The notes beneath the pieces are model-generated. The model saw only the letters and a program-made list of their open reading frames with translations, did not search any database and had not been told where the DNA came from. Positions 4,989-52,262 of a stretch of 64,000 bases of DNA are shown here, piece by piece. Position 1 is the first letter of the stretch. The number at the start of each line of letters is the position of its first letter. The position numbers were made by a program, and so were the translations under genes. The DNA is taken from contig NZ_VNHY01000002.1 in assembly GCF_008124865.1 (NCBI RefSeq), positions 744,001 through 808,000 on the forward strand. Direction: 5' to 3'. This stretch comes from Fodinibius salinus. Its GTDB lineage: Bacteria; Bacteroidota; Rhodothermia; Balneolales; Balneolaceae.

Positions 4989-5127
4989 GTTGCGAAAAGG
5001 TATAATTAAGATGATTAACGAAAAATAAGACCTAGAAAATACATGCCGGCTTGTTGATATGCAAGGGATCTGCAAAAATGCCGAGCTTGCTTAAGATCAA
5101 ATATTTACTGCTAACAATAAAGTGGAA

Positions 5128-5790: not shown

Positions 5791-5844
5791 AGTGGTGGAT
5801 GATAGGTAAAAAATAGAATATGCACGAAATATAAGGTTACCGTA

Positions 5845-6336
5845 ATGGAATTTAATATTGATTGGATACCAATTTTTAAAGTCTTTTTTGCAATGTTCTT
5901 GGGTGGGCTAATGGGTTTAGAACGAGAGATGGCCCAGAAGCCGGCCGGTCTGCGCACGCACATGCTCGTGGCGGGTGCCTCTTCGTTGCTTGTTGTCCTG
6001 GGGGACCTGATGATTGCTAACTACAGTAGTGGACCTGTCGTTGAGGCTATCCAGTCAGATCCTATCCGTATTATTGAAGCTATTATTACCGGTATTAGCT
6101 TTTTAGGAGCAGGAACGATTATTTTTAGAAATCAGGACGAAACCGTAGAGGGATTGACAACAGCCGCTTCTATTTTATTTGCTGGTGCCATTGGTATTAC
6201 GGTTGCATTACAAGAATTTATATTTGCTACTATTCTTACCCTAATTGCCATCGTAATTCTTTTTGGATTAGGTTATATTGAGAACTTTGTAAAACGGCTG
6301 CGCAGTCGTTTTTATGATGACAATTCCAATCAATAA
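5845..6336 (+). CDS. MgtC/SapB family membrane protein
   Basis: The 163-residue product carries four hydrophobic segments and the MgtC core: FFAMFLGGLMGLEREMAQKP then AGLRTHMLVAGASSLLVVLG, the ITGISFLGAGTIIF motif and GLTTAASILFAGAIGITVAL. MgtC/SapB proteins are inner-membrane factors linked to growth in low magnesium and to regulation of the F-type ATP synthase in Salmonella. The bare membrane domain seen here lacks the C-terminal ACT-like extension of Salmonella MgtC. The stop lies 17 bp before the MATE exporter start, so the two probably share a transcript. Confidence 0.9.
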   Translation: MEFNIDWIPIFKVFFAMFLGGLMGLEREMAQKPAGLRTHMLVAGASSLLVVLGDLMIANYSSGPVVEAIQSDPIRIIEAIITGISFLGAGTIIFRNQDETVEGLTTAASILFAGAIGITVALQEFIFATILTLIAIVILFGLGYIENFVKRLRSRFYDDNSNQ

Positions 6337-6353
6337 AAGTATATCCCAGTCGG

Positions 6354-37111: not shown

Positions 37112-39133
37112 CTATTCTATGATTTTTAGCTTCTGTTGAAATTTTTTGAGGGTTTCGAGCACATTGCAGCCGGAATAAATAAACTCATCAATGCCGGCTT
37201 TTTTGAAGGTGTCAGTATCCTTCTTGGGATTTCCCGCCAGTACTGCAATCGGCTGATTATCCAGTTCTTTAAGTCCATCGCAGATAGTGGGAACCAGCTT
37301 TGGATACTCCTTATCGGAACTGCAGATGACAACAATATCAGGTTGTTGCTGTTCCACTGCTTCAAGGGCAGCATCTGCATCCGCAAAGCCAATAGGATCT
37401 TCGATGTCATATCCTGCACAACCAAAGAAGTTAGCACTAAAGGCAGATCGCCCTTTACGCCACTTTTTATTACCCAGCGGAAGATTAAGTACAAGTGGGG
37501 TTGAATCGTGATGTTCTGTTGCCAGTCGCAGTTCCTCAAAAGCCTGTGTCCCTCGGTACGGTTGTACCGTTCTGTATAATGTTTTTCCAACATCAACAAG
37601 CTGCGATGCAACATCGCCCAGCGTTGCTCCCTTAGCAAAGGCTGAGGCTAAGTTCTCGGGGAAATTATTGATATCAATTTTGAATTCCTTCTCTGATGTA
37701 TTCAGGGAAACAATCTTGTACGGCGAATCCATTTGATCAGCCATTGTGTCTTCGTCATTTGAATACTGGTTAGTACCTACAAAAGTACGTTCCCGTGAAG
37801 CAATGGCTTGATCTCGTTTTTGTTGCGACTTTTGGATGGCCGACTGTACGGTACCATTTTCGATAGCCTGGAGCAGTCCCCCCTCGACTTCTACTTGCTG
37901 GAATACCTGCCACGCAGCTTTCCCAATTTGATCGGTGAGTTTTTCGATGTAGTAAGATCCCGCAGCCGGATCAGCTACTTTATTAAGATAGGACTCCTCG
38001 CTTAGAATGAGCTGTTGGTTACGGGCAATGCGCTGTGAAAACTCATTAGGCTGACGGAAGTGTTCGTCAAACGGCATGATGGTCATTGAATCGCACCCTG
38101 CAATAGCTGCGGACATGCCTTCTGTAGATGTCCGCAGCATATTAGTATAGGGATCGTAGAGTGTCTTATTCCACCGGGATGATTGTCCGTGCAGATAAGC
38201 CTCATTATGCTCGGAATCAGCACCGAATGCCTCGATCAGGTTTTTCCAAAGCAAACGAGCCGCACGAAATTTGGCGATTTCAAGAAAATAGTTGGATCCT
38301 ACCGAGAAGCTGAAATGCAGACGATCAGTGACCTCATTAATGTTAAATTTGTTTTCTGTCAGTATGGATAAGTATTCTGCTGCCGCAGCCAGTGCGTAGC
38401 CAAGTTCTTGAACGAGCGTTGAACCAGTATTATGATAAAAGCGCGCATCAATACTCAGGGGACGAGCAGCTGGAAGATTGTCGTTCGTAAATTCAGTAAG
38501 CTGACAAATATCATGGCGAAGTTGTTGTTTGTCTTTGGGAAGATGGCCGTGCTCCAGCAGGTATACGAACGGATCATAAGAAAAGGTGGCCCGAACTTTT
38601 TGGGGATTCAAGTTCTGCTGCTGGGTTGTATTCCAAAGCATGCCCAATAGTGCCGGAGAAGCTAAGCCCGCATCAAAATGAAAGGCGGTGTCTTCGAGCG
38701 AAATATCGGCTACTAAATTTGAAAAGTCTTCTTGGTTCTGAATAGGAATCCCCTTCAGGTCTCCGCCAAGTGCTCCTTCGGTACGTTGCAGGGTTAGGTA
38801 AAATTGTAATGCATTAGCACCGCGACTCAGCGCATGTTTGGCAGAGCTATTAGCTTCTTCAATAGTATTTGCAAAAATGGGTTCGCGGATTTCCCAATCG
38901 TTGGGGTTCTCACCAGCGTATTCTTTGGGAATAGCTGAATGTCGTGGAATCTTATCAAGATCTTCGCGCCTGTAAAAGGGGAGTGGGCTTAGTCCTTCAC
39001 CGGTATCCCAGCGGAGCTCTTGTTTATAGTCCGCACCATTTAAATCTTGTTTAATAACATGTTCCCATTCTTCCGTAGAGGTGGGAGGGAAATCCTCAAA
39101 AAGAGATTTGTTCGTAGTTTCAGAATCACTCAT
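37112..39133 (-). CDS. mutA: Methylmalonyl-CoA mutase, small subunit
   Basis: A 673-residue paralogue of the large subunit. The barrel fold is recognisable from SIDARFYHNTGSTLVQELGY, FSFSVGSNYFLEIAKFRAAR, YDPYTNMLRTSTEGMSAAIA and KVADPAAGSYYIEKLTD. The C-terminal domain lacks D-x-H-x-x-G (the region reads SANFFGCAGYDIEDPIGFAD), as expected for the non-catalytic subunit of heterodimeric mutases. The gap to mutB is 94 bp. Together with meaB it forms a three-gene propionate module. Confidence 0.95.
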   Translation of the reverse strand: MSDSETTNKSLFEDFPPTSTEEWEHVIKQDLNGADYKQELRWDTGEGLSPLPFYRREDLDKIPRHSAIPKEYAGENPNDWEIREPIFANTIEEANSSAKHALSRGANALQFYLTLQRTEGALGGDLKGIPIQNQEDFSNLVADISLEDTAFHFDAGLASPALLGMLWNTTQQQNLNPQKVRATFSYDPFVYLLEHGHLPKDKQQLRHDICQLTEFTNDNLPAARPLSIDARFYHNTGSTLVQELGYALAAAAEYLSILTENKFNINEVTDRLHFSFSVGSNYFLEIAKFRAARLLWKNLIEAFGADSEHNEAYLHGQSSRWNKTLYDPYTNMLRTSTEGMSAAIAGCDSMTIMPFDEHFRQPNEFSQRIARNQQLILSEESYLNKVADPAAGSYYIEKLTDQIGKAAWQVFQQVEVEGGLLQAIENGTVQSAIQKSQQKRDQAIASRERTFVGTNQYSNDEDTMADQMDSPYKIVSLNTSEKEFKIDINNFPENLASAFAKGATLGDVASQLVDVGKTLYRTVQPYRGTQAFEELRLATEHHDSTPLVLNLPLGNKKWRKGRSAFSANFFGCAGYDIEDPIGFADADAALEAVEQQQPDIVVICSSDKEYPKLVPTICDGLKELDNQPIAVLAGNPKKDTDTFKKAGIDEFIYSGCNVLETLKKFQQKLKIIE

Positions 39134-39325
39134 AGTATAATGTTAGTCACAATTGCCGTTTCTCAAAATAATGAGCTTGTGGTTACTTTACTAATAGCCA
39201 GTATGAGAAAAGAATGTTCAAAATGGACAGACATACCATTAAAAATTGCTGCCCGATTTTTTGATAAGCTTTTGCTATATTAATCAACGTATTTTTAACT
39301 GATTAAATTTGAAGAATAGTATTCT

Positions 39326-40489
39326 ATGGAACAGGTAGACCAACAGATGCCCGCACTGACAGAACTGACAGAAGATGAAAAAATGCTTCAGGATGCTGCA
39401 AGTGACTTTGCAGACAATGTAATTAAACCTAAAGTACATGAAATGGATGAGCAGGCCAAGCTCGATCCAGACCTGGTGCAGCAGTTTTTTGATATGGGGC
39501 TGATGGGGATTGAGGTACCTGAAGAGTACGACGGAGGAGGAGGTTCCTTTTTTATGTCAATTCTGGCTATTGAGCAGATTTCGCGCGTGGATGCCTCCAC
39601 CGGCGTCTTCATGGATGTGCAAAATACGCTGGTCAATAATGCCTTTTTGAATTGGGGCAGTGACGATATTAAAGAGCGGTATCTGCCGCAGTTGGCGACT
39701 GAAAAAGTAGGGGCTTATTGTTTGTCGGAAGCCGGTTCAGGCAGTGACGCATTCGCGCTTAAGGCCCGAGCTGATGAAAAGGATGATCACTTCGTATTGA
39801 ATGGGTCCAAAATGTGGATCACTAATGCCAAAGAGGCCGATATCTTTTTAGTATTCGCAACGGTTGACCCCGATGCAGGATACAAAGGTATAACGGCTTT
39901 TATTGTCGAAAAAGATTTTGAAGGGTTTTCGGTATCCAAGAAAGAAAATAAGCTGGGTATTCGCGCCAGCTCTACCTGCGAAATTTTGCTGGAAGATTGC
40001 AAAGTGCCCAAAGAAAATGTGCTGGGTGAAGTAGGTAAAGGCTACAAAGTAGCTATTGAAACCCTTAACGAGGGACGTATTGGCATCGGTGCGCAGATGA
40101 TTGGTATAGCACAAGGTGCCTTGGATGCGGCTGTTGATTATACCAAAGAACGTGAGCAGTTTGGGCAATCTGTTTCCGATTTCCAAGGCGTACAGTTTCA
40201 GCTGGCAAAGATGGCTACTGATATTGAAACGGCGCGGTTACTGGTTTATAATGCTGCGCGGATGAAAGAAAACGGTGATAAATTTTTGAAAGAAGCCGCC
40301 ATGGCAAAGTATCATTCCTCTGAGGTGGCCGAGCGCGTTAGTTCACAAGCGGTAGATTTGTTTGGTGGTTATGGATACGTTAAAGAATATCCCGTTGAAA
40401 AGTTTTATCGTGATGCCAAAATCGGAAAAATTTACGAGGGTACATCTAATATGCAGCTTAATACTATCTCAAAGCTGCTGCTGAAGTAG
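39326..40489 (+). CDS. Acyl-CoA dehydrogenase
   Basis: A 387-residue flavoenzyme. Features: LMGIEVPEEYDGGGGSFFMS, GAYCLSEAGSGSDAFALKA (FAD and substrate contacts), NGSKMWITNAKEADIFLVFA, LGIRASSTCEILLEDCKVP, REQFGQSVSDFQGVQF, DLFGGYGYVKEYPVEKFYRD and KIYEGTSNMQL. In short-chain enzymes the Glu in Y-E-G-T is the catalytic base. Probable role is the first step of fatty acid or branched-chain acyl-CoA oxidation, feeding the adjacent methylmalonyl-CoA genes when the substrate is branched or odd-chain (inference). It is divergent from mutA with a 192-bp spacer. Confidence 0.94.
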   Translation: MEQVDQQMPALTELTEDEKMLQDAASDFADNVIKPKVHEMDEQAKLDPDLVQQFFDMGLMGIEVPEEYDGGGGSFFMSILAIEQISRVDASTGVFMDVQNTLVNNAFLNWGSDDIKERYLPQLATEKVGAYCLSEAGSGSDAFALKARADEKDDHFVLNGSKMWITNAKEADIFLVFATVDPDAGYKGITAFIVEKDFEGFSVSKKENKLGIRASSTCEILLEDCKVPKENVLGEVGKGYKVAIETLNEGRIGIGAQMIGIAQGALDAAVDYTKEREQFGQSVSDFQGVQFQLAKMATDIETARLLVYNAARMKENGDKFLKEAAMAKYHSSEVAERVSSQAVDLFGGYGYVKEYPVEKFYRDAKIGKIYEGTSNMQLNTISKLLLK

Positions 40490-40492
40490 CAA

Positions 40493-40614
40493 CAGGGCTT
40501 TACAAAGCCGCTACATTACGGGTAGTTATTGTGAGTAAAACGAAGCAATAGCAAGATCGAACTACTATAACTGGATGTGCGTCATTGCATTGCGCAATAA
40601 CGCTTGGGTTTTAT
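40493..40614. repeat. Degenerate palindromic repeat with GTCATTGC core
   Basis: The segment starts with a perfect small hairpin GGCTTTACAAAGCC (40496-40509). Inside it GTTATTGTGAG (40525) followed by ACGAAGCAATAGC (40540) matches the layout of the common GTCATTGCGAG...CGAAGCAATC palindromic repeats of Bacteroidota genomes. GTCATTGC recurs at 40581 and is followed by GCGCAATAACGC (40592), which pairs with the GTTATTG arm. It is probably a worn copy of the family seen at 22687-22820. Confidence 0.5.
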
Positions 40615-40646
40615 AAAGCCTCAATGCTTGGACTCTGGCTTTTTAT
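40615..40646 (+). terminator. Terminator between convergent acyl-CoA dehydrogenase and FGE-like genes
   Basis: AAAGCC (40615-40620) can pair with GGCTTT (40637-40642), followed by TTTATTT. The T-rich arm overlaps the last codon of the convergent FGE-like gene. Confidence 0.5.
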
Positions 40647-41401
40647 TTGTTAAGGGGATCTACACAGCGAAACCCTACGTCGTTTGCTTTTGCATCAGCT
40701 AAAACTCCAACCCGCCAATAGGTGGAGGCAATATACTTGCCTTCTTCGAAGCTGCCGCCGCGAATAATTCGGACTCCTTTGTTTTCTAATTTATCCCATG
40801 TGGGTTCTTTGCCATTTTTGGGATAAAATTGGTAATAGTTACCGATCCACTCGAACACATTACCGCTCATATCATAAAGCCCAGCACTGTTAGGTTTTTT
40901 AGTGCCCACTTTAAAGGCAAAAGGGGCACTGTTATTTTGGGTCCGAGCATAGATATTGAGGCTGTCAATATTATTTGTCCCTGCAAAACGCATTTTCTTT
41001 CCTCCGCTTCGAGCCGCATATTCCCATTCTTGCTCGGTAGGTAACCGCCACCCGTAATAATTACAAAAGGCACGGGCATCTTGCCAATCTATATTTACAA
41101 CTGGGCGGTTGCCCTGTTGTAGGGAGTCGGCCTCGGGAAGCTTGCGCGCGGTGCGACGAGCAAAAGCATCATACTGTCTGTAGGTTACTTCATACTTGCC
41201 AATTTTAAAATCACTGAGGGTTACTTGATGAACCGGTTTAGCATCGGGATTCGTATTATCATAGATGTCGCCCATCGTGAATGTGCCGCCTTCAATAAGT
41301 ACCATCTCTGGCTTATGGTTTGATTTCGCGGAAGATCGGAACAGGGCACATCCCGATATCAGAAAAATGAATCCAAATATGAAAATGTGAGATGCTTTCA
41401 T
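40643..41401 (-). CDS. Formylglycine-generating-enzyme-like (SUMF1) lipoprotein
   Basis: A 252-residue lipoprotein with lipobox LISGC (about residue 18). The SUMF1/FGE-sulfatase fold begins MVLIEGGTFTMGD and continues with VTLSDFKIGKYEVTYRQYDA, WQDARAFCNYYGWRLPTEQE, WEYAARSGG, GLYDMSGNVFEWIGN and RIIRGGSFEEGKY, ending DVGFRCVD. True formylglycine-generating enzymes need two active-site cysteines near the C-terminus. Here a single Cys in GFRC is visible, so it is more likely a structural or protein-binding member such as the GldJ/GldK-like lipoproteins of Bacteroidota. No gliding genes are adjacent. Confidence 0.85.
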   Translation of the reverse strand: MKASHIFIFGFIFLISGCALFRSSAKSNHKPEMVLIEGGTFTMGDIYDNTNPDAKPVHQVTLSDFKIGKYEVTYRQYDAFARRTARKLPEADSLQQGNRPVVNIDWQDARAFCNYYGWRLPTEQEWEYAARSGGKKMRFAGTNNIDSLNIYARTQNNSAPFAFKVGTKKPNSAGLYDMSGNVFEWIGNYYQFYPKNGKEPTWDKLENKGVRIIRGGSFEEGKYIASTYWRVGVLADAKANDVGFRCVDPLNK

Positions 41402-41564
41402 AAGAAATTCACTGGTAATATTAATACTATCTAAGTAGTATAATGTATAAACTCCTTAGGGTTCATACAAGAAATATTGTCAGATGCCTTCATTTTTGTG
41501 GATTTATTCATACTTTACAAGGTATATAGATATAAGGGGAAGAGACTAAATCCGCATTGGTACA

Positions 41565-42008
41565 ATGGCTGATATTCACGATATTGAACAGCGAATTATT
41601 AAGGAGTTTAAAGCTCTTGGGGACTGGACCGAGCGGTACAAGCATATTATTGATCAGGGACGGAACCTTGAGCCGCTCGATGAGGAGCACAAAATAGAAG
41701 AGAATTTAGTTCGCGGTTGTCAGTCACAAGTGTGGTTGCATACGCATCTTGATGGAGAGAACGTAATTTTTGAAGCTGACAGCGATGCTGCAATTACTAA
41801 AGGGCTGGTAGCTTTGATGGTTCGGTTTTACTCTGGCCAATCGCCTGAGACTATTATTAATACTGATCCCCGTTTTATTAAGAAAATAGGTATGGAGCAG
41901 CATCTTTCACCTACGCGTTCCAATGGGTTGGCCTCGATGGTTAAGCAGATGAAAATTTATGCTATGGCCTACAAAACGAAGCTGGAAAATAGCAAAGAAG
42001 AGGCGTAG
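41565..42008 (+). CDS. sufE: SufE-family sulfur acceptor protein
   Basis: A 147-residue protein with the SufE core: IIKEFKALGDWTERYKHIID, LEPLDEEHKIEENLVRGCQS (the Cys accepts persulfide from SufS), QVWLHTHLDG, and FYSGQSPETII. It stimulates the cysteine desulfurase SufS in iron-sulfur cluster assembly. No other suf genes are in this window. Start chosen at the ATG at 41565, which gives the family's normal N-terminus. Divergent from the FGE-like gene. Confidence 0.94.
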   Translation: MADIHDIEQRIIKEFKALGDWTERYKHIIDQGRNLEPLDEEHKIEENLVRGCQSQVWLHTHLDGENVIFEADSDAAITKGLVALMVRFYSGQSPETIINTDPRFIKKIGMEQHLSPTRSNGLASMVKQMKIYAMAYKTKLENSKEEA

Positions 42009-42136
42009 GTTACCGCTTGGTATTAATTTCTTTTAATTATCATTCATCTTTACCTTTTTTGATTTTTTTTTAAGTCATTAATCTTTACTATTGTTGCACA
42101 ATAAATATTATTAGCAAATAACAATGCCCATCAGTT

Positions 42137-44017
42137 ATGAATGCAAATGCTAAATCAAAATCTGTGAACGATAATACTGCTGGCTTGCTTGCTTCGCTTC
42201 GTAATGCCGGCTTAGGAATCCTTTACAAAGTAGCATTTTCACTTGCGGCTATTTCACTGGTACTTTCGGTGGTGTTTCAGGTTATTGGGACAATGCCTGT
42301 ACCGTGGTATTTCGCAGGCATGGGATTGTTATTTTTGTTGATTCCCTTTTTGGCGTGGAAGGGTGCTCACAAGTCGTCGAAGTTACTGATGCTCATTGAT
42401 ATCAATGCTTTTATTTTATTGTTGAGCGTACTCTTTACGCAGGGTTTGTTTGTTGAAGCATTTTATATCCCCGCTATTGGTCTGTCGATATTATTTTTCG
42501 GTCGCGAACATTCAAACCTGCGTATCGTAGGAGTATTTTTGTCTGCGGTCGCATTTTTAGTCCATGATTATATCTCTTTCACTGAGGTTACACTTTCATC
42601 TGGCAACGTTGAAATTATTAAATGGAGCATAATTGCCGTTGTTTTTGTAACTACATGGCTTATTTTCAAAAGCTTTTTAAGCTCAAAAGAAGAGGCCGAA
42701 GAAGAGAATAAAATTCTGCGCGAAGAGAAACGTCATCTTAGCCGTAAGCTTTCTGAGAAAAAGAAAGTAAATCAAAAATTAGCGGATAAAAATTCAGAGC
42801 TAGCTGATAAGAATGCTCAGCTATCCGACAAAACTCAAAAGCTTGCCAATAAAAAAGAAGAGGTAGAGCAGAGCGTACAGGAGCTTGAAGAAGCCAAGAA
42901 GCAGGCCGAAGAGGGAGGCAAGGAAAAGTATGAGTTTTTCTCAAATATGAGCCAGGAAGTGCGTATGCCACTGAATGCTATCATTGGCATGACCAACCGG
43001 CTTTCCAAAGATGATCCGCGCGATGATCAGCTGGAACAGCTTGAAATACTGGACTTTTCTTCCAAGACATTGCTAGCCTTGATGAACGACTTGCTGGTGT
43101 TTTCGAAGATTGAATCCGGCCGTATCGAATTTGATGAAATTCCGTTTGATTTGCAGAAGCTATTAGACAGCGTTGTTGATAGTTTTGCCTTTACTACTGA
43201 GAATAAGGATATAGATCTGAGCCTGGAGGTAGATGATGATTTGCCGGAAACAATTGTGGGTGATCCCAACAGGCTTACACAAATTTTGAATAACCTGGTT
43301 ATTAATGCCGTCAAGTTTACCAATGAGGGAGAAGTTGGTGTTTCGGTAGAATCTTTAGATAGTAGTGATGATGAGATAACACTTGGATTGCGGGTTTTAT
43401 ATTCAGCTAACGGTATCACCAAAGATGAGCAGCAAAAGATTTTTAAGACTTTTAATGATGAGGATGAAGACAGCGTTCGTACCTTTGGCGGACTGATGAC
43501 TACCAAGAGGATGATTGAATTACAGGGTGGTAAGGCCCAGGTTGAGTCCGTTGATGAGGGAGATGTTTTTATTGTAGAAATGCCTTTTGCCTTGTTCTCT
43601 GAAGAAGACGCTGAAGCGGCAATGCAGTATGGTAATGTAGAAAGTCTGCAGGAGGCAACTATTCTGGTGGCCGAAGACAATGCCATTAACCAGAATGTTA
43701 TTCAGCGATTTCTTGAAGAGTGGGGCGTAAATGTTATTGTTGCTGAGGATGGCGAACAAGCTCTTAAGGAGTTTAACAATAATAACGTGAATCTCATACT
43801 TATGGATCTTCAAATGCCCAAGATGGACGGTTATGAGGCAGCAAAGGAGATCCGTGCCTTAAATCATAAAGGGAAATCCGGCGTGCCGATCATTGCGCTG
43901 ACGGCGGCCAAGTTCGAAGAAGTGAAAGAAGAGGTGTTTGGTTCCGGCATGAACGACTTTCTGTCCAAATCTTTTGATCCTAATGAGCTGCAGGAAAAAA
44001 TTGAACAGCACATCTAG
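42137..44017 (+). CDS. Hybrid sensor histidine kinase without phospho-acceptor His, with intact receiver
   Basis: A 626-residue membrane protein. Five to six transmembrane helices (about 28-180) are followed by a long coiled coil (about 182-262, with K-L-x-D-K-N-S-E-L repeats) and a HisKA-like helix reading FFSNMSQEVRMPLNAIIGM. The H-box His is Gln at residue 273 (CAG at 42953-42955). The ATPase domain keeps an N-box (LNNLVINAVKFTNEGEV), but the G1 box reads YSANGI instead of D-x-G-x-G and the G2 box reads FGGLMTTKRM. The receiver (about 510-626) is complete: VAEDNAINQNV, LILMDLQMPKMDGYEA, IALTA and FLSKSF. So it is a signalling receiver with a degenerate kinase core, not a standard autokinase. 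It stands alone, with a terminator after it. Confidence 0.9.
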   Translation: MNANAKSKSVNDNTAGLLASLRNAGLGILYKVAFSLAAISLVLSVVFQVIGTMPVPWYFAGMGLLFLLIPFLAWKGAHKSSKLLMLIDINAFILLLSVLFTQGLFVEAFYIPAIGLSILFFGREHSNLRIVGVFLSAVAFLVHDYISFTEVTLSSGNVEIIKWSIIAVVFVTTWLIFKSFLSSKEEAEEENKILREEKRHLSRKLSEKKKVNQKLADKNSELADKNAQLSDKTQKLANKKEEVEQSVQELEEAKKQAEEGGKEKYEFFSNMSQEVRMPLNAIIGMTNRLSKDDPRDDQLEQLEILDFSSKTLLALMNDLLVFSKIESGRIEFDEIPFDLQKLLDSVVDSFAFTTENKDIDLSLEVDDDLPETIVGDPNRLTQILNNLVINAVKFTNEGEVGVSVESLDSSDDEITLGLRVLYSANGITKDEQQKIFKTFNDEDEDSVRTFGGLMTTKRMIELQGGKAQVESVDEGDVFIVEMPFALFSEEDAEAAMQYGNVESLQEATILVAEDNAINQNVIQRFLEEWGVNVIVAEDGEQALKEFNNNNVNLILMDLQMPKMDGYEAAKEIRALNHKGKSGVPIIALTAAKFEEVKEEVFGSGMNDFLSKSFDPNELQEKIEQHI

Positions 44018-44041
44018 TATCAACTCCGAACCAAATAAAAA

Positions 44042-44068
44042 AGGCGTCATTTTATGCAAATGACGCCT
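44042..44068. terminator. Bidirectional terminator between hybrid kinase and cold-shock genes
   Basis: AGGCGTCATTT (44042-44052) and AAATGACGCCT (44058-44068) are perfect 11-bp inverse complements around a 5-base loop, preceded by an A-run for the minus-strand gene. Confidence 0.88.
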
Positions 44069-44093
44069 CGAATTCTCAATATGTAACTGGCCC

Positions 44094-44303
44094 TTAGACG
44101 GGAATTACCTCTTGAGCTTGAAGTCCTTTGTCACCTTCAGCTACTGTAAATTCGACTTCTTGGCCTTCTTCTAGTTTTTTATAGCCTTCCATCTCAATTT
44201 CACTGAAGTGAACGAAAATATCTTCACCTTCTTCTCTAGTGATAAATCCATAACCTTTACCGTTATGAAACCACTTTACTGTTCCAACTTCGCGATCTTC
44301 CAT
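44094..44303 (-). CDS. Cold-shock domain protein
   Basis: A 69-residue single [23 protein letters not shown] contains RNP1 (KGYGFI) and DIFVHFSEI is RNP2. It is an RNA chaperone acting on single-stranded RNA. The start has a good GGAGAA ribosome binding site 5 bases upstream, stronger than most genes here. The upstream region to about 44420 on this strand is A/T-rich with TATACT repeats near 44390, leaving room for a leader of roughly 80-90 bases, as in cold-inducible csp genes. Leader regulation is inference. Confidence 0.95.
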
Positions 44304-44527
44304 GTTAATTCTCCAAACATTTTTACTTCGTGTGCTACTTAAATGTTCAATAACGCCTTGCTAACGCAATAATAAGCGCTTGAACGCATAAGTATAGTAT
44401 ATTTTTTGGGGATTACCTACTGTAAGCGGAATTTCCTCTATTTTTATATGGAGAAGTAGAAACAGAGGCCAATAACTTACCGAGGTATAATTTGAATACC
44501 AGAACGGTTATCTGTGTAATTATTTAA

Positions 44528-44778
44528 AAAGTAAATTCAGTTGTCTCCACGCTATTGTCCTGGATAGACCAGGTTACAGTCTTAATGGAAATTGATGACA
44601 GAGAAAATTTGGCATGGAATGTTTTACATGCTGTAAGAGATCGGCTTGTCCCAGAAGAAATGTTCCAATCGTCAGCACAGTTTCCGGTGCTGATTCGTAG
44701 CCAGTTCCTTGAGGGGTAATCATTATGGCAATAAGCCTGAAAATTCCATGTGGGGAATTTATGACTCGTATCCAATAA
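44528..44778 (+). pseudogene. DUF2267 pseudogene
   Basis: On the plus strand a frame without start codon runs 44528-44719 and reads LLSWIDQVTVLMEIDDRENL then AWNVLHAVRDRL, EEMFQSSAQFPVLIRSQFLE, G and stop. This is the DUF2267 pattern, which normally reads R-x-x-A-y-x-x-L-r-a-V-L-H-a-L-R-D-R-L, then a-A-Q-L-P-x-l-(I/V)-R, ending G-W. The stop replaces the Trp codon region. After a one-base shift the frame ISLKIPCGEFMTRIQ (to 44778) continues the family's C-terminal E-F-L-x-R-V helix. The start region is missing. DUF2267 proteins often travel with universal stress proteins, as here. A minus-strand 83-codon frame over the same bases is a shadow. Confidence 0.65.
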
Positions 44779-44885
44779 TCGAATTGAGAAATACCGTGTC
44801 AGTGTACAAGTATCTTTTGTATTGGAAGGCTGATAACGTTTTGCAATTGGCTTTTTAAGACTAATTGCTATTTAGGGTTCTCTTT

Positions 44886-45656
44886 TTATTCTTCGGGTAA
44901 AACGAGTATGGGCATTTTTGTATATACCGTTTTTTGGATATGCTCTTCTTCCACAAGAGATTGGAAAAATGTTTTTTGGCGTCGTGTCATTACAATAAGT
45001 TCGTTGGCTTCGTCATCTAGAAAAGCAGATATGCCGGTATAAAAATCTTTTTCGATAAGTAGTCTGAAGTTAAGTTGTGAATAGCTAATTTCTTCATTAG
45101 CTATTTCTTTGAATCCCCTAAACTTTGCTTTTGTTTCCAGATTATCTTCAGCAGCAATATGGAGTACCGTAATTTTGGCGTTAAAAAGTTCAGCCCATTT
45201 AGTTAGCTGATGGAGGATTTCCAGATTTCTGTTGTGGAAATCAGTTGCAAAGGTCATATGGCTAAAATCTGAATAAGGCTGATCTGCAGGAACGACAAGG
45301 ACGGGTACTGGTGATTGGAGCATAATATCTGATGAGATACTGCCAAACAGCATTTTTCCTATGTTAGATTTTCCTGTTGATCCCATAATAATCAGATCAC
45401 CAGAAGATTCTAGAATATTGGGAACCGTACTACCCAATTCGATACTGGTAGTGATTGACAAATCACTGTACCTATTTTGACTAATTAACTCTTCCATCAT
45501 TGTTTCTGATCCGTACGTATATGGCTGTTTCACAGAGTGCATAATTGATAAATCAGCATCGCATTTGTCAGCAATTTCTAAGGCATATTGCAAAGCATTT
45601 TGGGCAGGTTTGGAAAAATCAGTAGGAAGAAGTATCTCTTTAATATTATCTAACAT
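44886..45656 (-). CDS. Tandem universal stress protein
   Basis: A 256-residue protein of two USP domains. Domain 1 (about 1-125) has EILLPTDFSKPAQNALQYAL and the ATP-binding G-x2-G-x9-G-S motif as GSTGKSNIGKMLFGSISSDI, ending PVPVLVVP. Domain 2 (about 130-256) lacks a clear G-x2-G motif and ends MPILVLPEE. Tandem USPs are typical stress or energy-status proteins in Bacteroidota. It is followed upstream on the same strand by a decayed paralogue ending 6 bp away. Confidence 0.9.
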   Translation of the reverse strand: MLDNIKEILLPTDFSKPAQNALQYALEIADKCDADLSIMHSVKQPYTYGSETMMEELISQNRYSDLSITTSIELGSTVPNILESSGDLIIMGSTGKSNIGKMLFGSISSDIMLQSPVPVLVVPADQPYSDFSHMTFATDFHNRNLEILHQLTKWAELFNAKITVLHIAAEDNLETKAKFRGFKEIANEEISYSQLNFRLLIEKDFYTGISAFLDDEANELIVMTRRQKTFFQSLVEEEHIQKTVYTKMPILVLPEE

Positions 45657-45662
45657 AAATAA

Positions 45663-46320
45663 TTAGCTTTTTTTCATTATTGATGAGCTTGCCCCCGATA
45701 ATACCAGCAGTGGTACTTCCGTATAATAGTTGATCTCTTTTGATTCTTGTTTGGAAAGTGGTGGAACAGATTCATCGCAGTGTACTAATAGGAGTAGTAT
45801 GATACTATTAGTTTCTTTTTTATTGATGATTGTTTCAAGGAAAAATTTGGGTTGATCTACTTCAAATTGAAGGGTAGTATAATTAACTTTTCCAATAATT
45901 ATTTCTTTGACTCCCCGAAACATGTTTTCGGTTTTAAGATCACTTTCATCAGATAGATGGAAGGTATTTATTTTAGAAATGAACAGTTTTGCCAACCCGG
46001 TTACAAATAGCAGGACTTTTAATCTTGATTCTTGTAGTTAGTGACAAAGAGAGCTTGCTTGATAGCCATTTTAGAGAGCTTCTTTGGGTTCGAGTGTTAT
46101 ACTATTTCAGCAGTAGTACTGCTCCGAAACATCTTTCCCAGTCCTAGTTTAACCTTTGGTCCCCATAACGATCATGGCGATATCCTGACTTGTTGATCTC
46201 TTTCAACATGTGTAGGCTAAATATCGACAAACCGAATATGATTTTGTTGCTTTGCTCTTCGTCAAATATGCTCGGCGTTACATTTTTAATCGTAGTACTG
46301 TCAGGGAAAAATTTGACTAC
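45663..46320 (-). pseudogene. Decayed tandem universal stress protein gene
   Basis: Reading the minus strand from 46320, three frames are needed to follow a USP sequence. The first frame has VKFFPDSTTIKNVTPSIF then FDEEQ, and EINKSGYRH before a stop. A shifted frame gives MIVMGTKG. Another gives LGLGKMFRSSTTAEIV followed by a stop, then KMAIKQALFVTNYKNQD and stop. Finally the intact end frame (45663-45995, 110 codons) has FRGVKEIIIGKVNYTTLQFE and EVPLLVLSG, paralogous to domain 2 of the neighbouring USP (FRGFKEIANEEISYSQLNF). The N-terminal domain start is not visible. The 110-codon ORF alone would look like a hypothetical gene but is the tail of this pseudogene. Confidence 0.75.
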
Positions 46321-46511
46321 TCATTTAGAAATATAATTTAAGTTATTTGCTGTTCGGAATGTAGTTTCTTGTGCTCTAAATTAGGACATTCCCTCACAAA
46401 ACTATTTTGAGAATATTTATAATATTGTAATATGAGTCAGGTTGGAATTAGGTATGAATAATTTTTAATGTGATGAACAAAGAATGAATACTGTTTTGAT
46501 TATGAGAAGAT

Positions 46512-48005
46512 ATGGATGCTAAATTTGAGATATCAACAGATGAACAGATTATAAATCCAGTATGTGATTTTACGTACAGCTGGGGGGTGAACTGTGGATT
46601 GTCAAAAGGGGAAGCACTTCGTTTTTCTGTAGCCGTGAGTGAGCTCATTACAGATGTTATTCTTTTTGCCTTTCCTGGTGATAGTAAAGAGAATTTTGAG
46701 ATAGAGTTTTCTCATACATTCTCCAACGTAGAAATTGTAGTTAGTGAAATGGGCGAACCATTTGATCCGGATCGTCATACGTATGATGTGCAAAAAGTAC
46801 GTGATGAGGATGATTTCGATGGTGCGGGTTTTTTGCTCATGAAATCTTTTAGCGATGAATTTTCTTTCATTAATAAAGGAAAAGAAGGTAAAGAATTCAG
46901 GATAGCTAAAAACATTCAAATCCATGATATAGATGAACTGCTACTGCAATCAGCTGAAGAACGTGAGGCTGAAATACGAGATGAGGAAGATCAAGACCCC
47001 CATATAAAAATTGAAAACTTTACCGTCGATCGCATTAAGCATACTGATGCGGAAGATATCTCAAAACTTTTTTATCGTACATATGGCTATACCTATAATA
47101 AAGAAGATTTGTACCTACCGAAAAAGGTTGAAGAGTCAGTACTTGCCAAAGATAAGCTTGGGGTTATAGCCCGAAAACAAGATAATGAGGCAATTGGATA
47201 TTTTGGCGTAAATCCTAAAGACAACTCCGATATTGCAGAAGTTGCCGAAGCTGTAGTGTCTCCCAAGTATCGAAGAAATGGGGTGATGAGTTCGATGATG
47301 GACCGCCTTATTGAAATCGCGAAATCCAAGCAGTTGACTATGTTGTTAGGTGAGGCTGTTACCATCCATCCCGTAAGCCAAAAAGTAAATAATAAATTCG
47401 GATATAAGACAACAGCTATAGAACTAGCTTCTTCGATAAATGTTAAGTACAAGGGTTTTGATGAGGATTATCCCCAACCTGTATCCATAGCTTTAGATTT
47501 TCTTCCCCTCATCCAGCCTTCAAAAAAAGCAGTATATCTGCCGGAGAAATATAATGAAATTATTCTCGATACATATGATGAGTTGGGGATGGATGTAGAT
47601 CCCAAAGAAACAGAATCTTACCAGTTAGCAGATAAATCTGATATTGATCTGGAAATAGATTATTCCAGCTCCTCTTCACTCATTATTGTCAAGAAATATG
47701 GAAACGATTTTTTGACTGTACTTTCTGATATGGTGGACAGCCTGGAAGAAAAGTCTCCGAAAACGATATTGTTGGATTTACCTCTAGAAAATAGAGCTAC
47801 ACCGCAGCAGTTTTTAGATATAACATCTTTGAATTTTATCTACAGTGGGCTATTGCCACAGTATCATTTTAATACCGATTATCTCCGGCTGCAAAAAGTG
47901 TATGCTGGTATCGATTTTAATATTATTGATATCTATTCCGATTTTGGTAAAAAAATAAAATCACTTATTGCTGATGAATACCATAGCAACTCAAAAGAAA
48001 GGTAA
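46512..48005 (+). CDS. RsbW-like ATPase domain fused to GNAT acetyltransferase
   Basis: A 497-residue protein. Residues 1-140 form an anti-sigma-factor-like HATPase domain. The N-box region reads AVSELITDVILFAFPGD, where family members usually have E-x-x-x-N-A-x-x-H-A, so the Asn is Asp. VSEMGEPFDP stands for the G1 box and FDGAGFLLMKSFSDEF for G2. Residues about 165-300 are a GNAT domain (FTVDRIKHTDAEDISKLFYR, EAVVSPKYRRNGVMSSMMDR with acetyl-CoA loop R-R-N-G-V-M). About 300-497 is a further domain I do not recognise. The next gene, a STAS protein, overlaps by 32 bp. Partner switching between this protein and STAS is a reasonable inference. Confidence 0.8.
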   Translation: MDAKFEISTDEQIINPVCDFTYSWGVNCGLSKGEALRFSVAVSELITDVILFAFPGDSKENFEIEFSHTFSNVEIVVSEMGEPFDPDRHTYDVQKVRDEDDFDGAGFLLMKSFSDEFSFINKGKEGKEFRIAKNIQIHDIDELLLQSAEEREAEIRDEEDQDPHIKIENFTVDRIKHTDAEDISKLFYRTYGYTYNKEDLYLPKKVEESVLAKDKLGVIARKQDNEAIGYFGVNPKDNSDIAEVAEAVVSPKYRRNGVMSSMMDRLIEIAKSKQLTMLLGEAVTIHPVSQKVNNKFGYKTTAIELASSINVKYKGFDEDYPQPVSIALDFLPLIQPSKKAVYLPEKYNEIILDTYDELGMDVDPKETESYQLADKSDIDLEIDYSSSSSLIIVKKYGNDFLTVLSDMVDSLEEKSPKTILLDLPLENRATPQQFLDITSLNFIYSGLLPQYHFNTDYLRLQKVYAGIDFNIIDIYSDFGKKIKSLIADEYHSNSKER

Positions 48006-48270
48006 AAAACTTAACATAACGGTCCACGGTGATTTTAATCTAAGGACTAAAAAGATGATATTAAGTCGTCTTAATCCGGCTATTGACAAGCTGGTTATAA
48101 ACTTAATTAATTGTGAACGTATTGACAGTGAGGGTGTTATTTTTTTGCACCGATGGCTGCAAAAAGGGAATAAGTTACGACTTATTGACCCACCTGTTGT
48201 CTTCTTTGAAATACTTGAAATTTTAAGTCTTGAAAATTTGTGGAACTTTGACAAAATCCTAGCTGACTAA
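47974..48270 (+). CDS. STAS-domain protein
   Basis: I start at the ATG at 47974 (MNTIATQKKGKKLNITVHGD). A TTG two codons earlier is also possible. The 98-residue product has the STAS pattern: strand (LNITVHGDFNLRTKKMIL), strand (DKLVINLINCERIDSEGVIF, with D-S-E-G at the phospho-Ser loop position), helix and strand (LRLIDPPVVFFEILEIL). It overlaps the end of the ATPase-GNAT gene by 32 bp, which favours co-translation. STAS proteins of this size act as anti-sigma antagonists (SpoIIAA/RsbV-like) that bind RsbW-type ATPases. Confidence 0.75.
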   Translation: MNTIATQKKGKKLNITVHGDFNLRTKKMILSRLNPAIDKLVINLINCERIDSEGVIFLHRWLQKGNKLRLIDPPVVFFEILEILSLENLWNFDKILAD

Positions 48271-48281
48271 ATATATAGCAT

Positions 48282-48893
48282 ATGTCTAATGAATCTTCTT
48301 CAATGATTGATATTACAGATGACCCTAATTTATGGAACCGCTTCTTTATGGTTCATGCTCTGCTTGTCATTGGCAGTCAAGAAAAGGATAAGAGTTATAA
48401 TTTGGCCCCCAAACATATGGCCATGCCCCTTGGTTTTGGTCCATATTTCGGTTTTATGGGTACGCCCCGGAAAACAACGTATCGAAATATTAAGCGAGAA
48501 GAAGTTTTTACCGTTAGCTTTCCACAGCCCGACCAGCTGGTACAAACCAGCATGGCAGCTTCTCCCCGTGAAGAGGATGACAGCAAACCAGTTGTTGATG
48601 CCATTCCAACTGTGAAAGCCCAAGAAATAGAGGGCAAATTTATGGAAAATTCCTATTTACAGCTCGAATGTGTTTTGCATGACATTATGGGAAAGTTTGG
48701 CGAATGGGAAATGATTGTTGGCGAAATTGTAGCGGCTTATGTACATGAAGATGCGCTCAGGAAAGAAGGGGAGGATGCTGACGACAATAAACTTGTTGAT
48801 GAATCTCCATTATTAGCCTATCTGCATCCCGATCGATTTAGTACAATTAAAAAAAGTAACAATTTTCCCCTGCCAAAAGATTTTAAAAGGTAA
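48282..48893 (+). CDS. Flavin reductase-like FMN-binding split-barrel protein
   Basis: A 203-residue protein resembling the flavin reductase/FMN-binding split barrel: YNLAPKHMAMPLGFGPYFGF (the S/N-x-A-P-x-S/H-x flavin-contact region) followed by FGFMGTPRKTTYRNIKREEVF and TVSFPQPDQL. The C-terminal half has LECVLHDIMGKFGEWEMIVG and EIVAAYVHEDAL, the family's closing strands. Related proteins bind FMN and act as oxidoreductases or flavin donors. It lies 11 bp after the STAS gene and directly before the M20 peptidase gene, so these four genes may form one unit. Confidence 0.75.
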   Translation: MSNESSSMIDITDDPNLWNRFFMVHALLVIGSQEKDKSYNLAPKHMAMPLGFGPYFGFMGTPRKTTYRNIKREEVFTVSFPQPDQLVQTSMAASPREEDDSKPVVDAIPTVKAQEIEGKFMENSYLQLECVLHDIMGKFGEWEMIVGEIVAAYVHEDALRKEGEDADDNKLVDESPLLAYLHPDRFSTIKKSNNFPLPKDFKR

Positions 48894-48902
48894 TTGAACA
48901 GG

Positions 48903-50063
48903 ATGACAGAATTAGGTCGGGAGCTGCATAATTTTTTTGTGGAAAAGAAAGCGGATTTTATTGATCTGCTTCAATCGCTTGTCGAACAGGAAACGCCGTC
49001 GAATGAGCCTTCTTCTTTCACTGAGATATTAGAAATTGTCAGCCGAAATTTTGAAAACTTGGATTTTGATGTAGAGTATAGAGAAGGAGAGGAAACGGCC
49101 GGGCAGTTACTTTGTAAACCTGGCGATTTTAATTCTCAGGCTCCAACTCAGCTTCTAGTTGGACATATTGATACAGTCTGGGATATTGGGACGCTGGATG
49201 AAATGCCTTTCACCGTTGAAGGCAATGAAGCTGCCGGACCTGGTATATTTGATATGAAAGCCGGCATCTGTATGATGATTTTTGCTATGAAAGCTATCAG
49301 GGAACTTGAGAAACAGCCCCACATACAACCTGTATTTTTAATTACTACCGATGAAGAAATTGGGAGCGGAGAATCTAAAAATCTTATTATAGAACAGGCT
49401 AAACAGGCAGAGCGGACTTTTGTGCTGGAGCCTTCCCTTGGAACAGAAGGTAAGATTAAAACCGAGCGTAAAGGTATTGGTCAGTTTGAAATAACTATAA
49501 AAGGCCAGCCCTCCCATGCGGGTCTCGATCCTGAAAAAGGAGTAAGCGCGATTGTCGGCTTATCAAATGTTGTCCAACAGCTTGTGGACCTTAATGCACC
49601 CGAAAAGGGTATAAGCGTAAATGTAGGGACGATAGAGGGAGGTGAGCGGGCTAATGTTGTGGCAGCTAAAAGTAAAGCTGTAGTTGATGTACGAGTACCG
49701 ACAAAGAAAGACGGTGAAGAAATAAAGAAGAAGATCTACAATATTGAACCCGATTTGGAGGGAGTTGAAATTACGGTGAGCGGTGATATCAGTCGCCCGC
49801 CGCTTGAAAAAGAAGAAGCAAACGCAAAGCTGTGGGAGATAACGAAATCATTAGGTGCAGAGTTAGATCTGGATTTACAGGAAGGTAAGTCAGGCGGTGG
49901 CTCCGATGGTAATTTTACCAACCTCTATTCACCGACTATTGATGGACTCGGTGCCGTTGGTGAAGGAGCTCACGCTTATCATGAAAAAATATTAGTGGAA
50001 GAGACGCTTAAACGTGCTGAGCTTTTAACCCTTTTGCTGTTATATCCTTCACTGGAAGATTGA
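48903..50063 (+). CDS. M20-family metallopeptidase (carboxypeptidase G2-like)
   Basis: A 386-residue M20 peptidase from the ATG at 48903. A TTG at 48894 is an alternative, but it stands only 4 bases after the AAAAGG site. Motifs: LVGHIDTVWDIGTLDEMPF (metal His and Asp), GPGIFDMKAGICMMIFAM (bridging Asp), ITTDEEIGSGES (catalytic Glu-Glu), LEPSLGTEGKIKTERKGIG, GQPSHAGLDPEKGVSAI (dimerisation-domain His), and GGGSDGNFTN with EGAHAYHEKI (last metal His). It hydrolyses C-terminal amino acids, probably glutamate, from peptides or folate-like conjugates. Confidence 0.9.
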   Translation: MTELGRELHNFFVEKKADFIDLLQSLVEQETPSNEPSSFTEILEIVSRNFENLDFDVEYREGEETAGQLLCKPGDFNSQAPTQLLVGHIDTVWDIGTLDEMPFTVEGNEAAGPGIFDMKAGICMMIFAMKAIRELEKQPHIQPVFLITTDEEIGSGESKNLIIEQAKQAERTFVLEPSLGTEGKIKTERKGIGQFEITIKGQPSHAGLDPEKGVSAIVGLSNVVQQLVDLNAPEKGISVNVGTIEGGERANVVAAKSKAVVDVRVPTKKDGEEIKKKIYNIEPDLEGVEITVSGDISRPPLEKEEANAKLWEITKSLGAELDLDLQEGKSGGGSDGNFTNLYSPTIDGLGAVGEGAHAYHEKILVEETLKRAELLTLLLLYPSLED

Positions 50064-50071
50064 GATCCGAT

Positions 50072-50307
50072 TTGTTATTAATTGCCTCACTGTACGGCTT
50101 TAATATAATCAGTAGAAGTATTCTTGGGTTGCACTACTCTGTTGTACAATGATACTACTGTTATGGTTATCCCAAACATTGTTCTTTGCCGAAATGCTGC
50201 AACTGTCTCCGCCAAGCCGAGATGGCTGGCTGGTGGTCATTGTATTAAGTTTTATGTCATTAATAGTTGGACAGATTCAAAAACGATGGACAAAGAACTC
50301 CATGTAA
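50072..50307 (+). pseudogene. C-terminal remnant of a P-type cation ATPase
   Basis: Two plus-strand frames together resemble the end of a calcium-type P-ATPase. The first (50072-50152) reads LLLIASLYGFNIISRSILGL, matching the F-N-x-R-S-x-x-x-S-(I/L) loop before helix M8. The second (50149-50307) reads LLLWLSQTLFFAEMLQLSPP then SRDGWLVVIVLSFMSLIVG and QIQKRWTK, matching helices M9-M10 and the basic tail. They are joined by a frameshift near 50149. About 850 upstream residues are missing. The M20 gene stop is 9 bp before. The spacer 50308-50512 shows no gene. Confidence 0.5.
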
Positions 50308-50512
50308 CATCAGCGTAGCCGTAATTTTGTACTTTTTGATAACACTTGAACGACTATTGCTCACTTACGGAATTATCCAATATTGGTTTATCCGCGGGAT
50401 AAATATAAGATGTCCGCTTCCTGAGGAGCAGGAAACATTCCCGGCGTGAAGACTATATTAGATTCGAAATTGTATTCTTGCTATAGTTTAAGAAAATTAA
50501 AATTTGTCTATA

Positions 50513-50580
50513 TTTTATTGACAAAACTGTTATTTTGTAAACCAATTGTGGTTTAATCATATTTAAATATGTCAATAAAA
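50513..50580 (+). promoter_or_regulatory. Inverted repeat in the abiE promoter region
   Basis: TTTTATTGAC (50513-50522) and GTCAATAAAA (50571-50580) are perfect 10-bp inverse complements spaced by 48 bases. The second arm ends 12 bp before the abiEi start. Two TTGACA hexamers (50518 and 50583) and a palindrome ATATTTAAATAT (50559) lie in the same segment. AbiEi antitoxins in other systems bind inverted repeats in their own promoter and repress it. That this is such a site is inferred from position. Confidence 0.55.
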
Positions 50581-50592
50581 CGTTGACAAATA

Positions 50593-51357
50593 TTGAAAAA
50601 AATAAACCAAATATTACAAAAATGGCCTCAAAAGACTGTTATAACCACTGACTGGTTAAAGAGACAGGGTGTATCTCGGCAATCAGTTGATAACTACAAA
50701 AACAGTGGATGGTTAGAACGGATAGGTCAGGGAGCATATAAAAGGGAAGGTGATGAAATATCGTGGGAAGGAGCCTTATATGCGCTTCAGAAGTTCCAAA
50801 GTCTTTCAATTCATGTGGGAGGTAAAACTGCTTTAGAGCTGCAGGGATATGGCCACTATATTAAAATAGGCACTCATGAAAAGGTAATACTGTGGAAAAC
50901 ACCTGAAGTAAGGTTGCCATCATGGTTCAAGAGTTATGATGGATGGGCAAATGAATTGGAAGTACGGTCTGCTACTCTTTTTTCTAAAGAAGTAGATACT
51001 CTTTCTGATACAACTGTAGGACAGGTGGAAGTCCAGATATCATCGGCTGAACGAGCTGTATTGGAATATATATATGATGTGCCGAAACAGGAAGGTTTTG
51101 ATGAGGCCAATTACATCATGGAAGGGCTTGCTTCACTGCGTCCAAAAGTATTACAGCAATTACTTGAAGCATGTAATTCAGTACGATCCAAGAGGCTTTT
51201 TATGTATTTGGCTGAGCACCATGATCATAGTTGGTTTAAGAGATTAGATCCTTCAAAAATAGATTTTGGAAAAGGTAAACGAGAAATAATAAAAGGCGGT
51301 AAGCTGAATAAAAAATATAAGATAGTAGTACCGGAGTTGTCCAGGGAGGGCCGATGA
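50593..51357 (+). CDS. abiEi: AbiEi-type antitoxin (type IV toxin-antitoxin)
   Basis: A 254-residue protein starting at TTG 50593. The N-terminal winged helix (about 1-60: WPQKTVITTDWLKRQGVSRQ, YKNSGWLERIGQGAYKR) and the following AbiEi domain (SIHVGGKTALELQGYGHYIK, SSAERAVLEYIYDVP) match the antitoxins of AbiE abortive-infection systems. The C-terminal part (about 180-254) carries LAEHHDHSWFKRLD and a basic tail. There is no Shine-Dalgarno sequence before the TTG, so initiation is weak or leaderless, but no other start keeps the HTH. It overlaps the toxin gene by 4 bp. Confidence 0.9.
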   Translation: MKKINQILQKWPQKTVITTDWLKRQGVSRQSVDNYKNSGWLERIGQGAYKREGDEISWEGALYALQKFQSLSIHVGGKTALELQGYGHYIKIGTHEKVILWKTPEVRLPSWFKSYDGWANELEVRSATLFSKEVDTLSDTTVGQVEVQISSAERAVLEYIYDVPKQEGFDEANYIMEGLASLRPKVLQQLLEACNSVRSKRLFMYLAEHHDHSWFKRLDPSKIDFGKGKREIIKGGKLNKKYKIVVPELSREGR

Positions 51358-52262
51358 TTGACCGATATCGGGATCAAGTACGGCTATTGCTAAAGGTACT
51401 GCCTGTTGTGGCAGAAGTAGAGGAATTTGCTCTCAAAGGAGGTACGGCAATTAACTTTTTCTGGCGTAATCTCCCACGACTATCCGTGGATATTGATCTT
51501 ACCTATATACCAATTAAGAATAGGGAAGAATCTTTAAATGAAATCAAAAAAGGAATAAAGCATATAGGCCAAACCGTTTCTTCAAGAATTGGCGATGCAA
51601 ATGTTACTACTCAAAAAAGTGGTGGAATTCTGAGTAAGCTTCTAATAAGAAGTGATGGGGTCCAGGTAAAGTTGGAAGTAAATACGGTTTTAAGAGGATC
51701 GCTATTTGGGTCTGTTGAGAAAGAATTGGTTACTTCGGTTCAGGATGAATTTGAACTATTTGCGGCAGTTCCCACGCTTTCGATGGAAGACCTATACGGC
51801 GGAAAGCTTTGTGCAGCATTAGATCGTCAGCATCCCCGGGATCTGTTTGATGTGAAGCTATTACTTGAGAATGAGGGCTTAACGGATAAAATTATTGTTA
51901 CTTTTATTGGATATCTAATTAGTCATTCCCGTCCCATAAACGAACTGTTAAATCCCAGCCAGCAGGACCTCGAAGGAATCTATGAGAATGAATTTCAGGG
52001 AATGACAAATGAAGCTGTATCCTTAGAAGATTTAACTAAGGTGCAGAAAAAGTTGCCGAAGCTGCTTCTGGATGGTTTATCGGATGAGCAGAAAGAATTT
52101 CTATTAAGTTTCCAGCAAGCCGATCCGAAATGGGGATTAATGCCAGTAGATCATTTGAAAGAATTGCCGGGTGTACAATGGAAGCTCATAAATATTAGAA
52201 AGATGGATGATAAGAAGCATGAAGAAACTCGAGAAAAGCTAGAGAAGGTGTTGGGAAGATAG
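51354..52262 (+). CDS. abiEii: AbiEii/AbiGii-type nucleotidyltransferase toxin
   Basis: A 302-residue DNA-polymerase-beta-like nucleotidyltransferase. FALKGGTAINFFWRNLPRLS carries the GG-T/S motif and SVDIDLTYIPI the D-x-D metal motif. KLEVNTVLRGSL, TLSMEDLYGGKLCAALDRQH and PRDLFDVKLLLENEG are further family motifs. AbiEii toxins transfer nucleotides to tRNA acceptor stems or other RNAs and stop growth when released from the antitoxin. All motifs look intact, so the pair is likely functional. ATGA overlap (51354-51357) with the antitoxin gene couples translation. A stem-loop follows at 52278. Confidence 0.92.
   Translation: MIDRYRDQVRLLLKVLPVVAEVEEFALKGGTAINFFWRNLPRLSVDIDLTYIPIKNREESLNEIKKGIKHIGQTVSSRIGDANVTTQKSGGILSKLLIRSDGVQVKLEVNTVLRGSLFGSVEKELVTSVQDEFELFAAVPTLSMEDLYGGKLCAALDRQHPRDLFDVKLLLENEGLTDKIIVTFIGYLISHSRPINELLNPSQQDLEGIYENEFQGMTNEAVSLEDLTKVQKKLPKLLLDGLSDEQKEFLLSFQQADPKWGLMPVDHLKELPGVQWKLINIRKMDDKKHEETREKLEKVLGR

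Follow-up and report, generated by a model that had tools for sequence, protein, structure and literature searches.

The window, i.e. the whole stretch of 64,000 nucleotides analysed here, is part of the Fodinibius salinus genome (2.86 Mb in nine contigs). At 42137..44017 it carries on the plus strand, as do all domains and codons given below, an intact open reading frame of 626 amino acids without stop or frameshift. The product, a putative hybrid pseudo-histidine kinase, is orthologous by position and sequence to the hybrid kinases of 16 relatives. Its domain order is membrane sensor, coiled linker, HisKA, HATPase_c and receiver. The N-terminal sensor (residues 22-183; 42200..42685) has six predicted helices which were read from a structure model of low confidence (m0bc7b651b63a; mean pLDDT 65.6, pTM 0.37; too weak for any claim about the ATP site). 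In the orthologues the sensor is MASE7-like: the MASE7 profile matched with E ≤ 0.01 in 15 of the 16 aligned members, and only the Fodinibius salinus protein stayed at 0.099. The long coiled linker (residues 184-262; 42686..42922), assigned from the alignment and the low-confidence model, is 31 alignment columns longer than in the eight orthologues compared. The HisKA/DHp domain (residues 263-330; 42923..43126), a degenerate HATPase_c domain (residues 331-490; 43127..43606) and the C-terminal receiver (residues 506-626; 43652..44014) were assigned by Pfam and alignment. All three Pfam scores were over the cut-off (HisKA 51.3 bits, residues 264-328; HATPase_c 53.5, residues 375-484; Response_reg 100.8, residues 509-623).

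Kinase and phosphatase motifs and the receiver

A preliminary description of this DNA had reported Gln in place of the phospho-acceptor His, degenerate G1 and G2 boxes and an intact receiver. The alignment confirmed this. Codon 273 is CAG (42953..42955), within FFSNMSQEVRMPLN. The His is kept in all 14 other HisKA proteins over the cut-off in the Fodinibius salinus genome, and the H-box reads MSHEIRTP in 16/16 orthologues, i.e. the 15 aligned ones and that of genome G020 which has a stop in frame. Four residues after the position of the His, the Thr of the ExxT phosphatase motif, as defined in the available part of PMC11502775, is replaced by Met (T277M; ATG, 42965..42967). The G1 box DTGxGI of the orthologues aligns to Y422-S-A-N-G-I427 (D422Y, T423S, G424A; 43400..43417). 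The G2 box (FGG-LM; 43484..43498) has an in-frame deletion of four residues, so that GGTGLGL aligns to G451-G452 followed by L453-M454. Each of these four sites (H273Q, T277M, G1 and G2) is normal in the 15 aligned orthologues. The N-box is kept (N386, N390, K393). In the 626-residue sequence the interval between residues 201 and 576 is free of His, the whole DHp domain included; thus a nearby substitute acceptor is absent from the DHp helix. The exchange of the G1 Asp for Tyr, together with the deletion in G2, argues against ATP binding. As judged from these motifs the protein is probably catalytically inactive. Loss of autophosphorylation, as had been proposed, is the natural reading since the His, the G1 Asp and the G2 glycines are gone.

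The receiver retains the acid pair E513/D514, the phosphorylation site D557, T589 and K611. At position 612 a Pro shared by all 15 aligned orthologues is replaced by Ser (P612S); beside the catalytic Lys611 this exchange might impair the receiver. Because 40 of the 48 invariant receiver columns are kept, retention of the five residues is not significant by itself. Phosphorylation of the receiver, which the preliminary description had considered possible, is chemically plausible from the kept residues.

The genome has 25 receiver matches. Of its 15 HisKA proteins only two combine this domain with a receiver in one frame, the protein described here and a hybrid kinase at C2:251 kb with intact motifs. 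The latter was also the next best match in the same genome among the matches listed (40% identity, residues 230-624). Among these matches there was no further intact copy of the gene in the genome.

Orthologues and the PAS-SufE-kinase locus

Full-length orthologues were found in at least 16 other genomes, all of the same family (58 genomes searched, own included). They occur in at least 7/11 other members of the genus and in at least 9/23 family members outside the genus, among the matches listed; up to 21 candidates per genome were scored, and absence was verified at the locus in four genus members. In nearly full-length blastp alignments identity to the Fodinibius salinus protein was 36.6-48.3% (n = 15). 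The locus order is MUTA, ACAD, (FGE), PAS, SufE and kinase; at some loci MUTA or FGE was absent, unmatched or beyond the stretch fetched. In 16/16 orthologue loci the kinase is directly downstream of SufE, as it is in the window (SufE at 41565..42008, plus strand). The orthologues thus share position and domain order with the Fodinibius salinus protein. However, they possess the phospho-acceptor His, a G1 of the DTGxGI type, GGTGLGL, ExxT and a PAS neighbour, all of which are missing here.

The alignment with orthologues, which had been suggested as a check, showed that the motif substitutions are unique to Fodinibius salinus. As 16/16 orthologues have a normal H-box, the loss is specific to this species; the intact motifs indicate that the ancestor was normal and that the loss occurred on the Fodinibius salinus branch. 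The preliminary description had held that orthologues with an intact H-box, suggesting a recent mutation, would speak against its reading. This applies by half: the H-box is indeed intact in all of them, but the change is not a recent single mutation. Of 191 columns which do not vary among the 15 orthologues, 48 are altered in Fodinibius salinus, and no stop has appeared. A recent point mutation or a sequencing error was ruled out by the divergence along the entire protein and by the loss of four separate motifs.

Four genus members lack the kinase at the locus and retain PAS and SufE. They form one clade (support 89) which excludes Fodinibius salinus, whose own placement in the species tree is weak (support 66); its membership of the kinase-less clade was not supported. 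In genome G020, from another genus, the orthologue (L142, G020:C33, about 4917-6752, minus strand) has a single TGA exactly in the G1 box and otherwise reads through. This is either a fresh pseudogene or a sequencing error.

A PAS-only protein of 293-437 amino acids is encoded next upstream of SufE in 20/20 relatives, 16 with and four without the kinase; the Pfam PAS domain was confirmed in the three such proteins tested. Among the 21 loci compared the gene is absent solely in Fodinibius salinus, where 163 bp are left between FGE and SufE (41402..41564). No matching open reading frame was present in 38001-52000, and tblastn did not find a remnant in 41301-41700. Elsewhere in the genome the best match to the PAS-only protein was 38% over 133 residues. 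The length of the PAS-only protein differs within the genus: it is 307-309 amino acids in the kinase-less members (L137-L140: G001, G006, G011, G007) and 421-422 in seven members with an intact kinase.

Two features downstream of the kinase were observed in passing. A short open reading frame at 45663-45995 (minus strand) resembles the second half of the universal stress protein next to it (44886-45656), with 30% identity over 99 residues; it has neither the first half of this protein nor a Pfam match, and may be the remnant of a tandem copy of that gene. At 46512-48270 (plus strand) an anti-sigma-like HATPase_c_2 domain is fused to a GNAT acetyltransferase domain (497 amino acids), and the gene overlaps a small one whose STAS match stayed below the cut-off. 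Relative to the kinase this set is in opposite orientation in G003, G005 and G008.

Divergence and selection on the Fodinibius salinus branch

The changed invariant columns are distributed over all domains (sensor 14/44, coil 2/7, HisKA 9/42, HATPase 15/50, receiver 8/48). When every other sequence was left out in turn and counted in the same way, 14 had 0-4 changed columns and G027 had 15/158. With the species tree held fixed, the kinase had a terminal branch of 1.21 changes per site compared to 0.05-0.16 in seven genus members and 0.07-0.80 in eight others. The corresponding branch for ACAD and SufE was 0.093 (genus 0.012-0.074, others 0.047-0.141). All five domains were accelerated (sensor 1.22, coil 1.21, HisKA 0.44, HATPase 1.05, receiver 0.86). 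For the other hybrid kinase (C2:251 kb), too, whose motifs are intact, the share of the tree length is elevated, 0.143 vs 0.078. Therefore, part of the acceleration of the kinase may be non-specific.

Codon models were calculated with nine of the 17 genomes which have the kinase gene; G020 was excluded from the kinase alignment and from the rate and codon tests because of its stop. With branch lengths set proportional to those of ACAD and SufE, w (dN/dS) was 0.279 on the Fodinibius salinus branch and 0.069 in the background (2dlnL 298 against equal w, 313 against w = 1). By domain it was highest in the sensor (0.39), followed by the coil (0.34), HATPase (0.21), receiver (0.19) and HisKA (0.14), in each case below 1 (2dlnL 15 to 108). 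HisKA had the lowest w of the five domains, yet the largest rise over its own background (0.010 to 0.141). Constraint was relaxed on this branch, the sensor included, and w stayed below 1. The claim of a relaxed w depends on fixing the branch lengths to ACAD and SufE. When all branch lengths were left free w was 0.065 vs 0.059 and not separated, since the Fodinibius salinus branch reached saturation with 15 neutral changes per codon; this model, too, disfavoured w = 1 (lnL -11998.6 vs -12028.6).

Is the gene on its way out? In this case constraint would have been relaxed after deletion of the PAS partner, the protein would be drifting and stops would not yet be fixed. We take this, the main alternative to the reading proposed below, as a possibility of some weight. 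The acceleration in all domains is as expected, and among the loci compared only Fodinibius salinus has lost the PAS-only gene. The absence of the kinase in the four-member clade which keeps PAS and SufE and the TGA in G020 indicate that the kinase gene is dispensable in the family. Fodinibius salinus has the smallest of 12 genomes in the genus, and the MASE7 match is lost; the relaxed sensor and P612S lend further credibility. On the other hand, the open frame speaks against neutral drift. Random changes in these codons give about one stop per 16 amino-acid changes. Thus, 5.5 stops were expected from a strict count of 89 replacements, 12.7 from a looser one of 204, and 17 when the neutral share was derived from the average w; extending the relaxation of the sensor to all codons gave 26. 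There are none in 626 codons (Poisson P(0) 0.004 to 3e-8 for 5.5 to 17 expected stops, depending on the assumption), and frameshifts are absent as well. This makes unconstrained drift unlikely for the whole of the change. Similarly, w is below 1 in each of the five domains with fixed branch lengths, and HisKA and receiver are still well over their Pfam cut-offs. Recent relaxation may be mixed with earlier constraint. Taken with the codon models, on which this depends, the gene may be under continuing selection as a protein. Instead of being simply dead, it has probably changed from a kinase into a regulator.

The stand-alone Hpt and the proposed role of the receiver

A single Hpt match is present in the Fodinibius salinus genome, a stand-alone protein of 119 amino acids (G000:C4:286525-286881) which keeps its His (LAHKIKPN). 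It belongs to type 1, a group defined in the Hpt tree. In the family a stand-alone type-1 Hpt was found in 16/17 genomes with the kinase and in 1/18 without it (Fisher p = 7e-8, ignoring kinship, although the genomes are related and not independent; the split kinase of G020 was counted as present). Several of the 18 kinase-less genomes are incomplete, and the kinase locus was inspected in four. Within the genus the count was 7/8 with and 0/4 without the kinase (p = 0.01). The exceptions are G009 with a kinase and no clear type-1 Hpt, and G016 with an Hpt and no kinase. A weak Hpt match of 41 residues in G009 (C5, L165) was left out of the tree, in which this genome is represented by its other Hpt. 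Fusions of a related Hpt occur in three genomes, to a receiver in G019 and G022 and to a hybrid kinase frame in G012; these three were scored as without a stand-alone Hpt. The co-occurrence points to a link between kinase and Hpt. Coordinated acceleration of the Hpt was hardly seen: in 15 genomes (G009, G016 and G020 excluded) the share of Fodinibius salinus in the tree length was 0.077 for the Hpt, 0.059 for control genes and 0.218 for the kinase. On one side of the Hpt three neighbour genes are conserved in 6/6 genus members compared. A SIS-domain gene (glmS-like) on the other side, considered as a further conserved neighbour, had no counterpart in the stretches of six relatives and was dismissed.

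The fusion in G012 (L187:849-2423, minus strand, on G012:C41) deserves a separate remark. The Hpt match lies in a hybrid kinase frame of 524 amino acids with an H-box; by eye, the HATPase domain is nearly completely missing between HisKA and receiver. This frame represents either a further hybrid kinase that has degenerated or an error of the assembly.

How might such a protein operate? The ancestor was a membrane hybrid histidine kinase with a six-helix, MASE7-like sensor, a coiled linker, HisKA, HATPase and a receiver, and this receiver very probably relayed phosphate to the stand-alone Hpt encoded elsewhere in the genome. In Fodinibius salinus the kinase and ExxT phosphatase motifs were lost and the PAS-only gene is gone, while the protein and the Hpt were retained. 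By its motifs neither kinase nor ExxT phosphatase should work, yet the Hpt, the receiver residues and the open frame have been kept. In functional terms the protein is most economically read as a receiver-bearing regulator of the Hpt relay. We therefore propose, with a probability of about one half, that it is a hybrid pseudokinase which through its receiver continues to serve the ancestral Hpt relay as a sink, an acceptor or a scaffold. As a sink the receiver would take phosphate back from Hpt~P; as an acceptor it would be phosphorylated by another kinase; as a scaffold the protein would bind the Hpt or another kinase. A specific version, in which the phosphorelay is reversed, the sensor-controlled receiver drains or gates Hpt phosphate and a former activator has become a phosphate sink, is rather unlikely. 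Against the proposal as a whole stands that all domains were accelerated, the receiver among them and the sensor strongly, unlike in a clean pattern of a dead kinase with preserved sensor and receiver. P612S, the codon model with free branch lengths, the elevated rate of the other hybrid kinase and the two exceptions to the Hpt co-occurrence also count against it.

The preliminary description had called a membrane sensor acting through such a receiver an unusual signalling element. This was somewhat overstated. In Caulobacter crescentus the hybrid kinase CCNA_03265 (CC3162) lacks the conserved His and has the receiver Asp; in the available excerpts of that paper phosphorylation of the receiver by an Hpt, or a heterodimer, was proposed (PMC11481889). 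Absence of the His and a kept receiver Asp are common to both proteins. Likened by description, they differ in that CCNA_03265 has a nearby candidate His (H151) and that the excerpts give no comparison of it with orthologues; among the matches listed, which are partial texts, it is the nearest published case. LadS is a hybrid kinase whose receiver hands phosphate on to an Hpt domain in another protein, GacS; according to the extract at hand signalling requires its transmitter (PMC4866733), whereas the transmitter motifs are lost in the Fodinibius salinus protein. PMC6791715, in the portion available, deals with Ser/Thr pseudokinases. In a profile search the RcsD model gave a match far below its own cut-off.

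Subfamily II ethylene receptors of plants and RcsD are histidine kinase-like scaffolds without a phospho-acceptor His. They belong to other lineages, have other partners, and are likened here from description only. In DivL Tyr is in place of the His, and DivL does not have a receiver of its own; it resembles the Fodinibius salinus protein as a pseudo-histidine kinase and differs in these two points. Possibly the receiver is secondary and the remodelled transmitter does the work. DivL is a precedent: this pseudo-histidine kinase acts through binding DivK~P and, according to a section heading, is without kinase and phosphatase activities (PMC4211667). The HisKA domain is over its Pfam cut-off, and its w on this branch, 0.14, is lower than that of any other domain. 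However, compared to the respective background this w also increased more than the others, and a partner was not identified; we regard a secondary role of the receiver as doubtful. Very improbable is a still active kinase, either via another residue, as the alternative His discussed for CCNA_03265 in the excerpts of PMC11481889 might suggest, or in trans by heterodimerisation with the other hybrid kinase (C2:251 kb), whose motifs are intact: N390 and K393 of the N-box are kept, but the 201-576 stretch is devoid of His, and the Tyr in G1 and the shortened G2 oppose ATP binding.

We return to a receiver-bearing regulator of the Hpt relay. As far as the excerpts of the cited literature go, pseudo-histidine kinases are single cases. 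New here are a clear polarity of the change, a locus at which the orthologues keep their motifs and the retention of a candidate partner. Because the relatives are intact, the direction is clear and the probable partner is still encoded, the conversion of a histidine kinase to a non-catalytic regulator, or its decay, can be tested side by side with the orthologues.
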